A stretch of 22,108 bases of DNA, from positions 1 through 22,108 of IMG/VR virus record IMGVR_UViG_3300050821_003817; one strand, 5' to 3'. The notes under the pieces were generated by a model. It did not search any database. It saw only the letters and a list, made by a program, of their open reading frames with translations, and was not told the origin of the DNA. Every line of letters begins with the position of its first letter. The first letter of the stretch is position 1. This DNA comes from a virus. The position numbers and the translations under genes are program-made. Positions 238 to 22,108 of the stretch are shown here, one piece after another.

Positions 238-312
238 ACGCCTGTAGCTCAGCGGTAGAGCGCCCGGTTGACGAGCAACCGGCGGGCCTGGGTTCGAATC
301 CCAGCGGGCGTG
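238..312 (+). tRNA. tRNA-like gene with enlarged anticodon arm; isotype uncertain
   Basis: The acceptor stem pairs 238-244 with 305-311 (7 bp, one T-G wobble). T8-A9 are at 245-246, the D stem is GCTC/GAGC at 247-250 and 258-261, and the T arm at 288-304 has loop TTCGAAT and stem CTGGG/CCCAG. The discriminator is G312 and CCA is not encoded. The abnormal part is the anticodon arm. With canonical spacing (position 26 at 262, a 4-nt variable loop at 284-287) the loop is 11 nt (268-278) instead of 7, and T33 would precede GAC (270-272, Val). The same bases can fold as a 7-bp stem, 264-270 with 276-282, closing a 5-nt loop ACGAG. In that fold the central triplet is CGA, with no U33 before it. It may be a decayed tRNA, a tRNA with a loop insertion, or a tRNA mimic. 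Confidence 0.75.
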
Positions 313-331
313 CCTGATGCCATGCCTTCGC

Positions 332-1427: not shown

Positions 1428-2198
1428 GTGGTCGAGCAGCTCGCCAGCGCGCGCAACCTGCTCGGGATCGTGCGCGCTCAAACGGGCGCGATCGGGGTCG
1501 CGGTCAGCTTCGGGAAAGACTCGCTAGCCACTCTCGACCTGTGCTGTCAGGTGTTCAGCCGCGTCGAGGCGTTCTATCTGTACCGCGTGCACGGTCTCGA
1601 AGTGGTCGACGACTGGGCGCGCGCGGTGCGCGAGCGCTGCGGGGTTCAGGTGCGGATGTACCCGCACTTCGACCTGTCGCGCTGCTACCGAAACGCGGTG
1701 CTGCAGCCGCACTGGGCGGGGCTCGACAAGGCCCCGCGCATCAAAATGTCCGACGTCGAGGATGCGTTTCGCGCCGATGCGCGCGTCGACTGGATCGCCT
1801 ACGGGTGGCGTCGCAACGACTCGTTCTCGCGCGCGCTGATCATGAAACGCTGCGGGGGGCTCGACGAGCGCGCGCGGCGCGTGTTCCCGCTTCGCTCGTG
1901 GCGTCGCTCCGATGTATACGCGTACCTCGATCAGCAGGGGATCGCGCGCCCGCCGACGCTCGGTCGCAAGGAGCAGGGCGGGCTCGACTTTCACCCGGCC
2001 GCGCTCGCCGCGCTGCGCGACGAGCACCCGGACGACTGGGCTAAGTGGACGCGAGATTTTCCGTTTTCACCGATGCAGACGTTACCGATCGCAGCGACAG
2101 ATGGCCCGTCATCGGGATCGGCTCCCGCAGCGGTCGCGCGTCGGAAAGCATCCAGCAAAAAGGGCCCGTCGCGATCGGGTGCGGCTGGTAAAGCTTGA
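1428..2198 (+). CDS. PP-loop ATPase, PAPS reductase/DndC-like, 256 aa
   Basis: GTG at 1428 is one base after the preceding stop. Residues 27-32 (SFGKDS) match the SGGKDS pyrophosphate-binding loop of N-type ATP pyrophosphatases. Downstream conserved features are a DW.A..V....G VQV block, GWRRNDSFSRALIMKRCGG near residues 127-145, and a PLRSWRRSDVYAYL block near 155-168, typical of phosphoadenosine-phosphosulfate reductase-like proteins. The cysteine-containing C-terminal active site of true PAPS reductases is absent, so sulfonucleotide reduction is unlikely. The fold more probably adenylates a substrate, perhaps for nucleic-acid modification as in DndC or tRNA thiolation enzymes; that is inference. 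The last 50 or so residues are low complexity (A, S, R, K rich) and overlap the ASCH gene on the other strand. Confidence 0.85.
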   Translation: MVEQLASARNLLGIVRAQTGAIGVAVSFGKDSLATLDLCCQVFSRVEAFYLYRVHGLEVVDDWARAVRERCGVQVRMYPHFDLSRCYRNAVLQPHWAGLDKAPRIKMSDVEDAFRADARVDWIAYGWRRNDSFSRALIMKRCGGLDERARRVFPLRSWRRSDVYAYLDQQGIARPPTLGRKEQGGLDFHPAALAALRDEHPDDWAKWTRDFPFSPMQTLPIAATDGPSSGSAPAAVARRKASSKKGPSRSGAAGKA

Positions 2199-2451
2199 GC
2201 AGCTCGTTCAGCGGCAGCACCGCGTAAAGCGTCACGATGCACACCGCGGCCCCGTACACGTACCCATCCGGGAGCCAGCACCCGAGCGAGCGCAGCAGCT
2301 CGTTACCCGCTTCCAGGCTCGCGCGCGACCGGCCGGCGATGATCAGCAGGTCGCCGCGGTACGGGGTAGCCCATGAGCGGTTCTCGACGCGCTTGTGCCC
2401 TGCGGCGATCGCCCATGCCCAGGGCTGATGCACGGTCAAAGACTTCAGCAC
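2041..2451 (-). CDS. ASCH/PUA-like domain protein, 136 aa
   Basis: The start is a GTG complementary to 2449-2451, with GGGGAGG (complement of 2457-2463) five bases upstream. A TTG at 2484 would give 11 more residues but lacks this support. The N-terminus carries the ASCH signature: LTVHQPWAWAIAAGHKRVENR (residues 5-25), then RGDLLIIAGRS. The ending GPFCWML.DARPLREPIPM.G is also typical. ASCH domains share the PUA fold and bind RNA or modified nucleosides; some are amidohydrolases for N4-acetylcytidine. In phages their role is mostly unknown. It is the only minus-strand gene in the window, converges on the PP-loop gene with a 158-bp overlap, and is divergent from the terminase genes. It therefore needs its own promoter, perhaps inside the start of the small terminase gene. 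Confidence 0.85.
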   Translation of the reverse strand: MLKSLTVHQPWAWAIAAGHKRVENRSWATPYRGDLLIIAGRSRASLEAGNELLRSLGCWLPDGYVYGAAVCIVTLYAVLPLNELLKLYQPHPIATGPFCWMLSDARPLREPIPMTGHLSLRSVTSASVKTENLAST

Positions 2452-2477: not shown

Positions 2478-2993
2478 ATGACAATGAACGCCTACGCGAA
2501 GTATCGCGGGGTGAGCCATACAGCGGTCTCGAAAGCAGCGCGCACCGGTCGCATAACGCTCGTCAATGGTCGGGTGGACCCGGTCACCGCTGACCGCGAT
2601 TGGAAGCGCAACAGCGAACCGGTACCGCACGGGGGGCAAATCGTCGGCGAGGATACCCCTGCACCCGGTCGGGAGTCACCCGGCAAGGGGGCACAACCAG
2701 GTCCGCGAGACCCCGAAACGGCCACGTTCGCGCGCTCGCGCGCGCTGCGCGAGACGGTCAAGGCGCGGCTGGCGAACCTGGAATACGATCAGAAGCGCGG
2801 CAAGCTCGTCGACGCCGAGGAAGTGCGCTCGCACTTCTACAAGCTCGCGCGCGCTGCGCGCGACATGCTGCACTCGATCCCGGATCGGCTCGCCCCGCGT
2901 CTGGTCGGCGAGACCGACTCGCACAAGATTCACACCATGATCACGGAAGAAATTGACCGCGTCTCCGCAGCTATCGCCGACGCAGCTGTGTGA
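2478..2993 (+). CDS. terS: terminase small subunit, 171 aa
   Basis: ATG at 2478 (a second ATG lies at 2484). Residues 3-30 (MNAYAKYRGVSHTAVSKAARTGRI) form a helix-turn-helix of the Nu1/TerS type that recognises the packaging site on phage DNA. A charged, proline- and glycine-rich linker (about residues 45-80) leads to a C-terminal helical region (about 83-171) with ALRETVKARLANLEYDQKRGKLVDAEEV. That motif is typical of small terminases that oligomerise and contact the large subunit. Length fits the family. It directly precedes the large subunit, which begins inside its last codons. No strong ribosome binding site is visible before the ATG. The in-frame upstream ATGs at 2373 and 2415 are less likely because they lie in the ASCH gene. 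Confidence 0.85.
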   Translation: MTMNAYAKYRGVSHTAVSKAARTGRITLVNGRVDPVTADRDWKRNSEPVPHGGQIVGEDTPAPGRESPGKGAQPGPRDPETATFARSRALRETVKARLANLEYDQKRGKLVDAEEVRSHFYKLARAARDMLHSIPDRLAPRLVGETDSHKIHTMITEEIDRVSAAIADAAV

Positions 2994-4929
2994 GCAGCTG
3001 TGGCGCTCCGCATGGGCGCAGGACCGTCGGCTGACGCTGTCCGAGTGGGCCGATGCGAACGTCGTGCTTTCGAGCAAGGACAGCAGCGAACCTGGTCCTT
3101 ACCGCACCGAGCGCACCCCGTACGTGCGCGAGATCGCGGACTGTCTGTCGCCGCAGAGCCCGGTCGAGACCGTCGTATGGGTGTCGGGAGCTCAGCTCGC
3201 CAAGACCCGGCTCGGGCTGAACTGGATCGGCTACGTGGTCGACGTCGCGCCGGGTCCCATGCTGATGGTCGAGCCGACGCTGCTGTTGGCGAAGAAGATC
3301 AGCAAACAGCGGCTCTCGCCGATGATCGAGTCGACGCTCGCGCTGCGCGACAAGGTGAGCGAGGCCCGCTCGCGCGACAGCGGGAACACGATGTTCGAGA
3401 AGGAGTTCCCGGGCGGCATCCTGATGCTCACCGGGGCAAATTCCGCCGTCGGTCTGCGCGCCATGCCCGTGCGGTACCTCTTTCTGGACGAGGTCGACGG
3501 GTACCCGGGCGACGTCGAGGGCGAGGGCGACCCGGTCGAGCTGGCGCGCAAGCGGGCTTCGACCTTCGCGCGGAGGAAAATCCTGATGACCTCGACCCCG
3601 ACCATCAAAGGGCTTTCGCGCATCGAGGCGGAATTTCAGCGCTCCGATCAGCGTCGGTACTTCGTCCCGTGTCCGCACTGCGCGCTGATGGACTGGGTTC
3701 GCTGGGAGCGCATCCAGTGGCAGGAGAAGCGCCCCGAGACCGCGGCGCTGCTGTGCACTGGCTGCGGCGCGCTGATCCACGAACGACACAAGACCTGGAT
3801 GCTGGCCTCGGGCGAGTGGCGCGCCACCGCGACGGGCGACGGCAAGACCGCGGGCTTTCACCTGTCGAGTTTGTATGCACCGTCCGGGTGGGTGTCGTGG
3901 GCCGACATCGTCTCGGAGTTTCTCGCCGCCAAGGACAACCCGATCAAGCTGAAAACGTGGGTGAACACGCGACTAGCGGAAACATGGGAGGAACGCGGCG
4001 ACGAAATCGACTCGACTGGCCTGAAGGCGCGACTCGAAGATTACGGCGGGGTCGAGGTGCCGGCCGGGGTCGCGGTGCTCACCGCCGCCGTGGATGTCCA
4101 GGGCGACCGCTTGGAGGTCGCTGTCAAGGGCTGGGGGGCCGGCGAGGAATCGTGGCTCATCGCACTGCATCAGGTGCAGGGCGACCCGCTGAAGGATGCG
4201 ACGTGGTTCGAGCTTGACTCGATTCTGCAACAGACCTACACGCACGCCAGCGGGCGCGAGCTTGCGGTGCGCACCGTCGCGATCGACAGCGGGGGCCTTC
4301 ACACAGACAAGGTTTACCGGTTCGTCAAGCCGCGCGAGACGCGTCGGCTCCGAGGTGTCCCCGGTATCGAGGGGGTGCAGCGGGTTCGCGCGATCAAGGG
4401 GATGGCCGGCCCGGGTCGTGAGATCGTGGGCCGTCCGAGCGCGAGCAACCGCTATAAGGTGAAGCTTTATATCCTCGGGGTCGACACGGCGAAGGACACC
4501 ATCTTTAGCCGCATGCACTCGGGGGTCCCGGGTCCGGGGTACCTGCACATCCCGGCATGGGTTGACGACGAGTACCTCGAACAGCTCACCTCGGAGAAGG
4601 CCATACGCCGATATAAGAAGGGCGTCGGCGCGGTGCGCGAGTACGTGAAGACGCGCGACCGAAACGAGGGACTTGACCTGGAGGTGTATTCGCTGGCCGC
4701 GCTTTACATGCTGGGACGGCAGACCGTCGCCCGTCTCGGTCAGATGGCAGCGGCGATGCTCCCGCTTCCGGTCGAGCCCGGGGTCGAGCCCGTCGAGCAG
4801 CTGCCCGCGGCCGCGCCGTCGTCGCGACGCGGTCAACCCGCGGCCGCACAACCCGCGCGCCCGTCGTGGTACTCGAAGACGTCGGGCCCCGCGTTCGGCA
4901 AGACCGGATGGGTTAACAGCTGGAAGTGA
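2953..4929 (+). CDS. terL: terminase large subunit, GpA family, 658 aa
   Basis: The ATP-driven DNA packaging motor and nuclease. From TTG 2953, the ATPase domain shows a Walker A-like GAQLAKT (residues 79-85), a Walker B YLFLDEVD (175-182) and the coupling motif TSTPT (213-217). Two CxxC pairs (C240/C243 and C268/C271) form a likely zinc ribbon, as in many lambda GpA-like terminases. The second half carries nuclease-type motifs such as AAVDVQGDRLEVAVKGWGAG and AIDSGG. The C-terminal 50 residues are proline/alanine rich. The start is uncertain: no ATG is available, and TTG 2953 (41 bases inside terS) or CTG 2986 are the candidates. Family identity is certain from the motifs and length. Confidence 0.93.
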   Translation: MTASPQLSPTQLCEQLWRSAWAQDRRLTLSEWADANVVLSSKDSSEPGPYRTERTPYVREIADCLSPQSPVETVVWVSGAQLAKTRLGLNWIGYVVDVAPGPMLMVEPTLLLAKKISKQRLSPMIESTLALRDKVSEARSRDSGNTMFEKEFPGGILMLTGANSAVGLRAMPVRYLFLDEVDGYPGDVEGEGDPVELARKRASTFARRKILMTSTPTIKGLSRIEAEFQRSDQRRYFVPCPHCALMDWVRWERIQWQEKRPETAALLCTGCGALIHERHKTWMLASGEWRATATGDGKTAGFHLSSLYAPSGWVSWADIVSEFLAAKDNPIKLKTWVNTRLAETWEERGDEIDSTGLKARLEDYGGVEVPAGVAVLTAAVDVQGDRLEVAVKGWGAGEESWLIALHQVQGDPLKDATWFELDSILQQTYTHASGRELAVRTVAIDSGGLHTDKVYRFVKPRETRRLRGVPGIEGVQRVRAIKGMAGPGREIVGRPSASNRYKVKLYILGVDTAKDTIFSRMHSGVPGPGYLHIPAWVDDEYLEQLTSEKAIRRYKKGVGAVREYVKTRDRNEGLDLEVYSLAALYMLGRQTVARLGQMAAAMLPLPVEPGVEPVEQLPAAAPSSRRGQPAAAQPARPSWYSKTSGPAFGKTGWVNSWK

Positions 4930-20383: not shown

Positions 20384-22108
20384 TGGGAAAGGGCAGCAGC
20401 ACCGTCAGCGGGTACCGCTATTACATGGGCCTGCACTTCGGCCTGTGTCACTCGCTTGAGCCGTACGTCGGGGCGAGCGTCGCCGATGGGCTTCTGGAAA
20501 TACGCGCCGGGGATCTGACCGCGTGGGCCGGCACGCAGACCGGTTCCGGAACGATCTATATCAACTCACCTGGCCTGTTCGGGGGTGATCAGCGCGAGGG
20601 GGGAATTCTCGGCTACGCCGACCTCATGGCGGGCGAATCGACGCAGCTCGCTAACCCGTACTTGACCGCGCAGCAGGGCTTGCCGCAGTCGGCCTTCCGT
20701 GGGCTCGCGACGCTCGTTTACAAGTCCGGCCAGGTCGGCTCGAACAACCCATACCCGAAACCCTGGACCTTTCGCGTTCGTCGCACCACGGCCGGCTGGC
20801 AGGGCGGGGCCCCGTGGAACCCGACTCAAGCGGCGATCACGCTGTCGAGCGGGGTCGTCGGAATGAACCCGGCGCACATCATTTACGAAGCGCTCACCAA
20901 CAGCGATTGGGGCATGGGGTACCCCAGCGCGCAGCTCGATCTGACGTCGTTTACCGCGGCTGCGACTCAACTCTATAGCGAGGGTCTCGGTCTGTGCGTG
21001 CTGTGGAACCGCGAGAACACGATCGAGCAATTCATTCAGGACATTATCAATAACGCGGGCGGGGCGCTGATCTCTGACCCGACTACCGGTCTGTTCGTGC
21101 TCAAGCTGCTGCGCGGGGGCTACAACCCGCTCACGCTTCCGACCTTCACCGAAGACAACGTGCTCGAAATCGTCAGCTATGACGCGGCCACGGTCATCGG
21201 GGCGATCAACGAAATGGTCGTAACCTACGTCGACCCGACCATCGGCAGCAATAACTACGGCGGGCAGCAGTGCGTCGCGGTGCAGGCCACCGGAAGCATT
21301 CAAGCTTCGGGGGTCGTCGTCTCGCAAAAGCGGGACTACAAGTACATCGCGACGGCGGATCTGGCGTCGCGAATCGCGCAGCGCGACCTCGCGCCGCTGT
21401 CGACGGCACTTAAGCGCATTCAGGTCAAGCTCGACCGTACCGCGTGGACGCTCACCCCGGCCGACGTGTTCGTGCTCGACTTTGCTCCGCTCGGGATTGG
21501 CTCGGTCGTTTTTCGTGTCGGCGAGATCGATTACGGAACGCTCACCGCGGGCGCTGTCACCGTCACCGCGATCCAAGACGTGTTCAGTCTTCCCGCTTCG
21601 AGCTACGTCTCGGTGCCGACGACGGGATGGGTCCCGCCGAACCCGAACCCGATCGCCACGGCTCACTGGATGGGCATCGACGCCGACTATCGAACGCTGT
21701 ACCGCGATTTACCCGCGTACGAATTTACGACGCTCGGGGCCGGTCAGGGTTTCATCATGCTGGCCGCTCAACGTCCCACGGGCATGTCGTACAACTACCA
21801 GCTATGGAGCGTCGTCTCGCCGGGTTCGACCTATCTTTTTCACGGGGGCGGAAACTGGACCCCGACCGCGCTGGTCACCTCAAGCCTTGGTCCGTTCGAT
21901 ACGTCGATATCGCTGAACACCGCGACCGACCTGACGAACGTGCTCGCCGGCACGGCCGCGATGCTCACCGACGGGGTTCACTTCGAGGTCGTGGAAATCG
22001 ACGCCATCGACCCGGTCGCGCTGACCGCGACCATTGCGCGCGGGTGTCTCGACACGGTCTCGTACGCGTTCAGCGCCGGGGCGCGGCTGTGGTTTACCGA
22101 TCTGGTCT
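20383..22108 (+). CDS. tail tip / host specificity protein, J-like (5' part)
   Basis: ATG at 20383 in a TGATG overlap; the frame stays open to the window end (575 codons visible). It opens MGKGSSTVSGYRYYMGLHFGLCHS, then EIRAGDLTAWAGTQTGSGTIYINSPGLFGGDQREGGI, a start shared by large siphophage tail-tip proteins. A central segment reads NPAHIIYEALTNSDWGMGYP...LGLCVLWNRENTIEQFIQDIINNAGGALISDP, matching the gpJ/phage-tail_3 hub domain pattern. The next block (KRIQVKLDRTAWTLTPADVFVLDFAPLGI) is also typical. The last 80 visible residues hold the small beta module also seen in the 567-residue tail protein. The missing C-terminus should carry receptor-binding domains. Confidence 0.88.
   Translation, partial: MGKGSSTVSGYRYYMGLHFGLCHSLEPYVGASVADGLLEIRAGDLTAWAGTQTGSGTIYINSPGLFGGDQREGGILGYADLMAGESTQLANPYLTAQQGLPQSAFRGLATLVYKSGQVGSNNPYPKPWTFRVRRTTAGWQGGAPWNPTQAAITLSSGVVGMNPAHIIYEALTNSDWGMGYPSAQLDLTSFTAAATQLYSEGLGLCVLWNRENTIEQFIQDIINNAGGALISDPTTGLFVLKLLRGGYNPLTLPTFTEDNVLEIVSYDAATVIGAINEMVVTYVDPTIGSNNYGGQQCVAVQATGSIQASGVVVSQKRDYKYIATADLASRIAQRDLAPLSTALKRIQVKLDRTAWTLTPADVFVLDFAPLGIGSVVFRVGEIDYGTLTAGAVTVTAIQDVFSLPASSYVSVPTTGWVPPNPNPIATAHWMGIDADYRTLYRDLPAYEFTTLGAGQGFIMLAAQRPTGMSYNYQLWSVVSPGSTYLFHGGGNWTPTALVTSSLGPFDTSISLNTATDLTNVLAGTAAMLTDGVHFEVVEIDAIDPVALTATIARGCLDTVSYAFSAGARLWFTDLV

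Follow-up and report, generated by a model that had tools for sequence, protein, structure and literature searches.

What do a PP-loop ATPase and an ASCH-domain protein do when their genes lie side by side, next to the genes that package a phage genome? Here we examined such a locus in a virus record of 22,108 bases, the whole of which is referred to as the window; it lacks end repeats and is therefore probably a fragment. The PP-loop gene (1428-2198, plus strand) begins with GTG and encodes 256 aa, with the SFGKDS PP-loop motif at 1506-1523 (residues 27-32). The ASCH gene (2041-2448, minus strand) begins with TTG and encodes 135 aa, starting MKSLTVHQPW. Downstream are the terminase small subunit TerS (2478-2993, plus strand, start inferred; phrog_57, E 7e-31; 51% to the TerS of locus L159) and the large subunit TerL of the GpA family (2953-4929, plus strand; PF05876, E 6e-95; PF20454, E 2e-91). 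These Pfam and phrog matches confirmed the placement, made in a first-pass annotation, of both genes directly 5' of the terminase genes. Absent from that annotation was the convergence of the two genes, which overlap at their 3' ends by about 158 bp (2041-2198). A stop-free, tail-to-tail overlap of 92-152 nt recurs in five relatives (L002, L025, L027, L029, and L030). Because the genes are convergent, ASCH opposes the terminase transcripts in the window's clade, a layout for which we know of no reason. Near either end of the window ARAGORN placed tRNA-Ser(cga) (238-314, plus strand) and tRNA-Trp(cca) (20724-20795, minus strand), and right after the tRNA-Ser is a small cysteine-rich, zinc-finger-like ORF (317-568) without a confident family.

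The PP-loop protein matches PF01507 (PAPS_reduct) at 46 bits (E 8e-12; cut-off 22.5) and phrog_424 (E 3e-13). Its relatives were gathered from phage records and viral contigs. As the sole query, the window protein retrieved no relatives from the viral contigs, and a diverse alignment (A1) was too diverged as a query; close sub-alignments did retrieve them, at 57-67% identity to the window protein in other viral contigs. One scan of genome contigs yielded a single relative, from a MAG of candidate division TA06, and a plasmid scan gave one weak match. Substitutions between the window and its relatives are mostly at silent sites, with pN of 0.25-0.35 and pS of 0.65-1.0, so the gene is under purifying selection. 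Gly29, Lys30, and Asp31 of the SFGKDS motif are invariant across the family. An AlphaFold2 model from 49 family members had a mean pLDDT of 89.9, with the last ~36 residues poorly defined. In VIA-align this model matched the PAPS domain of FAD synthase (Z 15.2, rmsd 2.6, 156 aligned), as well as APS reductase (APR, Z 14.9), CysD (14.2), LarE (~14), GMP synthetase (13.8), and TilS (12.8); the fold is also common to TtuA and NcsA. Judged by its modeled fold and SxGKDS loop, the protein is a member of the N-type ATP pyrophosphatase (PP-loop/HUP) superfamily. Since the Z scores across this superfamily are only a few units apart, the fold does not pick out a substrate.

Relatives of this protein are usually labeled "phosphoadenosine phosphosulfate reductase," and a sulfur role has been assigned in phage papers (PMC10434257). 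The ECG[IL]H-like C-terminal catalytic cysteine motif was found in 0 of 74 family members, and the window protein lacks it too, which bears out the first-pass remark that there is no reductase cysteine site. Against NCBIfam cysH-type models the window protein scored 17-22 bits, with cut-offs of 154-254. A true PAPS/APS (sulfate) reductase was rejected on the missing catalytic cysteine, despite the PF01507 domain. More broadly, no cysteine is conserved throughout the 74 members, no alignment column exceeds 62% Cys, and Cys is absent from the invariant and nearly invariant positions. DndC, SspD, and BrxP have the PP-loop PAPS-reductase fold in common with the window protein, but their conserved cysteines, which serve as 4Fe-4S ligands and, in DndC, also as a dyad, have no counterpart in the window's family. 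The DndC-type reading put forward in the first-pass annotation fails on this point. PADLOC models for DndC/SspD and other curated defense models did not match the window proteins, and a DndC/SspD-type enzyme was rejected on the cysteines together with this result. The PADLOC BrxP model gave a very weak match over 24-31 residues in two relatives only. Dnd-type phosphorothioation and sulfate reduction by these genes both look unlikely.

The ASCH protein matches PF04266 at 36.8 bits (E 7e-9), exceeding the curated cut-off, and phrog_3193 (E 5e-32). Its selection signal is weaker than that of the PP-loop gene (pN 0.36-0.51, pS 0.61-0.80 against relatives), and Lys19, Glu22, Arg24, Gly32, and Trp99 are invariant in an alignment of 16 relatives. 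The predicted structure (pLDDT 92.4) matched the human TRIP4 ASCH domain, both free and DNA-bound, in Foldseek (E 2e-11 to 8e-11, TM 0.77-0.80), and a sequence-profile match to the TRIP4 solution structure reached E 3e-27. Structure prediction, which the earlier annotation had named as a check, confidently returned a PP-loop ATPase fold for one protein and a PUA/ASCH fold for the other. With PF04266 and a PUA-like fold carrying GxKxxExR, the window protein is an ASCH protein of the ASC-1/TRIP4 type. It has the same fold and GxKxxExRxWxTxxRG residues as human ASC-1/TRIP4, but the phage protein stands alone and its middle part is shorter. By analogy with TRIP4, we propose that the window ASCH may bind DNA.

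We next asked how regularly the two genes travel together. Among 69 PP-loop loci from phages and viral contigs, which are not independent of one another, a ParB-like gene is nearby in 58 and an ASCH gene lies within 2.4 kb in 49. The commonest order is ASCH-PP-ParB-TerS-TerL, while the order in the window's clade is ParB-PP>-<ASCH-TerS-TerL. The genes keep company in many phages that are unrelated to each other. Isolates with these genes include phages of Riemerella, Bacteroides, and Lactobacillus; the set is intact in the Riemerella phages RAP44, CRP2, and CRP12, and Lactobacillus phage JNU_P7 has the PP-loop gene. As a control, a non-redundant set of 42 loci with at least 2.9 kb upstream was fetched by terminase similarity rather than by the PP-loop gene. 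In this terminase-only sample, ASCH occurred in 13/16 loci with the PP-loop gene and 0/26 without (Fisher p 2e-8), and ParB in 16/16 and 5/26 (p 1e-7), although both profiles, ASCH and ParB, were built from PP-linked loci and so may be less sensitive in the others. Pfam alone (E 0.01) assigned 12 PAPS_reduct, 5 ParB, and 4 ASCH among the 63 ORFs of the 16 PP-loop loci, and when 101 ORFs upstream in the PP-negative loci were scanned, no ASCH appeared among the 25 most frequent families listed. In Bacteroidetes phages, the ASCH protein scores marginally below the Pfam cut-off. The association of PP-loop and ASCH genes is no coincidence, and their co-occurrence beyond chance holds as the first-pass annotation supposed. 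Its notion of a pair stands as an association, but most relatives carry a three-gene set that includes the ParB-like gene.

In the window itself, no ParB gene was detected within the 1.4 kb upstream, where the fragment begins. The slot taken by a ParB-like gene in three relatives (L002, L025, and L030) holds two small plus-strand ORFs (897-1181 and about 1178-1426), neither of which resembles ParB. In two more relatives (L027 and L029) an upstream ParB-like ORF is discernible by eye, with a profile E of only 0.03-0.05. Some PP-loop relatives have neither ASCH nor ParB (L015, L016, and L035-L038), and in Psychrobacter phage Y8A the PP-loop gene is about 4 kb from ParB (PMC10434257). ASCH also occurs near TerL without a PP-loop gene in L007, L008, and Burkholderia phage CSP3, so ASCH as an exclusive partner of the PP-loop gene was rejected. 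By Pfam, no modification enzyme adjoined ASCH in the ASCH-first loci scanned, a set that did not include CSP3. We found no description of the ASCH-PP-ParB-terminase set in the literature searched, though an earlier mention is possible; Iyer et al. 2013 (NAR gkt573) and Maindola et al. 2014 may touch on ParB-linked modification genes.

The identity of the enzymes that accompany ParB in place of the PP-loop gene was informative. All five ParB-positive, PP-negative loci of the terminase-only sample carry DNA-modification enzymes: three have ParB-N6/N4-methyltransferase fusions (L090, L162, and L164), one has ParB and Mom (L159; Mom E 6e-49, terminase 70% identical to that of the window), and one has ParB and a TAGT glycosyltransferase (L171; E 5e-18). 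Pfam found a DNA-modification enzyme in 1 of the 16 PP-loop loci (exclusivity p 3e-4). One exception, L118, has a Dam-type adenine methyltransferase (3394-4275) between the PP-loop gene and ParB. In L171, the ParB-like gene and then the TET-associated glycosyltransferase (2929-4427) lie 5' of a window-related terminase; from its sequence, this region is a candidate DNA glycosylation locus. In a ParB-first sample, 80 viral loci were fetched with the ParB of L159 and L162, queries of the methyltransferase and Mom type that bias the sample toward such ParBs; 48 had methyltransferase fusions, 10 an adjoining Mom, and 3 an adjoining methyltransferase. For the other 19, per-family Pfam counts included N6/N4 and C5 methyltransferases, Tet_JBP, TAGT, Mom, radical SAM, and PLP enzymes. 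Among annotated phages, phiEf11 has ASCH, ParB, and Mom, while Appa and Zartrosa have ParB and Mom.

Two comparisons show the exchange at the level of DNA. Lactobacillus phage CV244 is arranged ASCH - ParB/methyltransferase - TerS - TerL, and viral contig L020 is arranged ASCH - PP - small ORFs - ParB - ... - TerL. Their ASCH proteins are 92% and their TerL proteins 86% identical. DNA similarity ends 12 bp 5' of the L020 PP-loop start and resumes at the TerS/TerL junction, and between these breakpoints CV244 has the ParB-methyltransferase whereas L020 has the PP-loop gene, small ORFs, and ParB. Common flanks around a different core indicate an allele swap. The window and L159 are 70% similar from within TerS onward, with PP-loop and ASCH genes upstream in one and ParB and Mom in the other. 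In its position 5' of TerS/TerL and its interchange with known modification enzymes, the window locus resembles a ParB-associated phage DNA-modification locus.

A natural null is provided by Riemerella phage CRP19 (L258, OR089151), whose flanks to either side are 95-96% identical to those of RAP44. At 3342-3701 the P-loop half of the PP-loop gene has been lost, and the PP C-terminal part now continues, in frame, from an ASCH N-terminus. ParB, TerS, and TerL are intact and about 96% identical to those of RAP44. The PP-loop core of the set is therefore dispensable in CRP19, as would be expected for an accessory modification. The titles and abstracts listed for the Riemerella phages yielded no statement about restriction resistance.

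Given the ParB and ASCH linkage and the slot of known DNA-modifying enzymes, these genes probably place or manage a mark on phage DNA. The first-pass annotation had suggested that the pair marks phage DNA or RNA, or handles a modified nucleotide; nucleic-acid modification is partly supported, but the context favors DNA over RNA. We consider it fairly probable, from gene content and order, that ASCH-PP-ParB is a phage DNA-modification module by the packaging genes, with a PP-loop adenylating enzyme replacing the methyltransferase. The neighborhood evidence is one of association rather than activity. That DNA is the substrate, that it is adenylated, what the individual proteins do, and that the aim is protection are all inferred. 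PP-loop enzymes such as TilS, GMP synthetase, LarE, and DndC adenylate a substrate, which a nucleophile then attacks. In the phage module, the PP-loop enzyme would activate an atom of a DNA base, a base substituent, or a base precursor by adenylation at the cost of ATP, and a small nucleophile from the cell would attack the adenylated base; sulfur from a host donor could be an alternative nucleophile. The DNA context and the lack of cysteine and Fe-S ligands favor adenylation with a small cellular nucleophile. The ASCH protein may attach to DNA or to the altered base, which it would then target, read, or trim. The ParB-like partner could be the DNA-engaging NTPase of the module, like DpdB in 7-deazaguanine systems, where this ParB-like protein provides the ATPase function (PMC12839542). 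The mark would be made late, ahead of packaging, and would protect the packaged genome. More tentatively, and with somewhat less than even confidence, the family could represent a widespread, previously unrecognized hypermodification chemistry, such as amination of an adenylated base or its ligation to an amino acid or amine, by a PP-loop ATPase without catalytic cysteine or Fe-S cluster, with ParB as the DNA-engaging partner and ASCH as a docking or reader subunit.

RNA modification would instead make the PP-loop protein a TilS/TtcA-like tRNA-modifying enzyme and ASCH its RNA-binding companion, adjusting phage or host tRNAs. The fold common to TilS, TtuA, and NcsA, the tRNA-Ser(cga) and tRNA-Trp encoded in the window, and the wide association of PUA/ASCH domains with RNA (PMC7641849) are consistent with this, but the ParB partnership and the interchange with DNA methyltransferases and Mom are not, no cysteines are conserved for an Fe-S thiolase, and the best structural matches of ASCH include DNA-bound TRIP4; we regard this as unlikely. 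A different view comes from the prophage-linked IbrA/IbrB, a PAPS-reductase-like and ParB-like pair as here, likened by description, for which we know of no ASCH or terminase linkage. In PMC5874904 they are termed "coactivators of prophage gene expression," and the PP-loop and ParB proteins, with a similar architecture and a place adjoining the terminase, might coactivate late or packaging genes or set their timing, with no nucleic-acid modification. This is quite improbable, as the exchange with methyltransferases and Mom would be left unexplained, and IbrAB may itself be a modification pair.

Defense or counter-defense acting on proteins or nucleotides, with the PP-loop enzyme adenylating or tagging a host factor and ASCH serving as an RNase or antitoxin, also seems doubtful. 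A Zymomonas ASCH is cited as an RNase in PMC13160076, and the PP-loop protein has a weak profile match to Cap9 of CBASS (E 9e-5), but no PADLOC model matches the window proteins, and the position and ParB linkage favor DNA. Least credible is an auxiliary metabolic gene, that is, a true PAPS/APS reductase that boosts sulfur assimilation beside an unrelated ASCH gene. The PF01507 and phrog_424 annotation and the role assigned in phage papers (PMC10434257) suggest it, and the catalytic motif missing in 74/74 members, the low NCBIfam scores, and the fixed linkage to ParB and ASCH make it highly improbable.

If modification of phage DNA is correct, its nearest parallels are known ParB-linked systems. 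Phage ParB_N + N6_N4_Mtase methyltransferases use the same slot 5' of TerS/TerL and a homologous ParB domain, and that of CV244 has the same ASCH neighbor; their catalytic unit is a SAM methyltransferase, whereas here a gene of its own encodes the catalytic unit, a PP-loop ATPase. Mom hypermodification, of the phage Mu family, is partnered by ParB in phiEf11, Appa, Zartrosa, and L159, as in the PP-loop loci. The Mom of L159 is a small enzyme immediately 5' of TerS/TerL, like the PP-loop gene, and phiEf11 has an ASCH gene as well, but Mom has a different, GNAT-like fold without a PP-loop. ParB-domain genes also accompany CmoX/CmoY, where the chemistry is proven, with cytosine carboxymethylated and glycine ligated to it (PMC12783734). 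In Synechococcus phage S-B43, the CmoX/CmoY locus has a ParBc gene, so that here too a ParB-domain gene belongs to a phage DNA-modification locus. Adenylation of the base substituent is the activity proposed for CmoY (PMC12783734), but unlike the window protein CmoY is an AMP-forming ligase not termed PP-loop, and no ASCH is mentioned. Dnd has a ParB-like partner, DndB (PMC10853773, PMC12839542), and type-4 BREX has a PAPS-reductase-type protein in place of a methyltransferase (PMC12839542).

Phage "PAPS reductase" genes are currently counted as auxiliary sulfur metabolism (e.g., PMC10434257), and such annotations would be wrong if this PP-loop family modifies DNA. Should the hypermodification reading be true, a good part of phage "cysH"/"PAPS reductase" auxiliary metabolic genes would be DNA-modification enzymes. 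DNA modification by this family would also leave a new base or backbone mark to discover, and restriction and other DNA-sensing defenses would have a counterpart, which no study found in the literature searched has sought.

Several loci vary the arrangement. A single viral contig (L079, 398-4131) has two PP-ParB pairs in tandem followed by ASCH, and in two other loci (L018 and L040) two PP-loop copies flank ParB. In one locus (L097), a short glutamine-amidotransferase-like ORF (1918-2433; match of 52 residues) lies directly 5' of ParB-PP, and on this sequence match it could hint at an ammonia donor.
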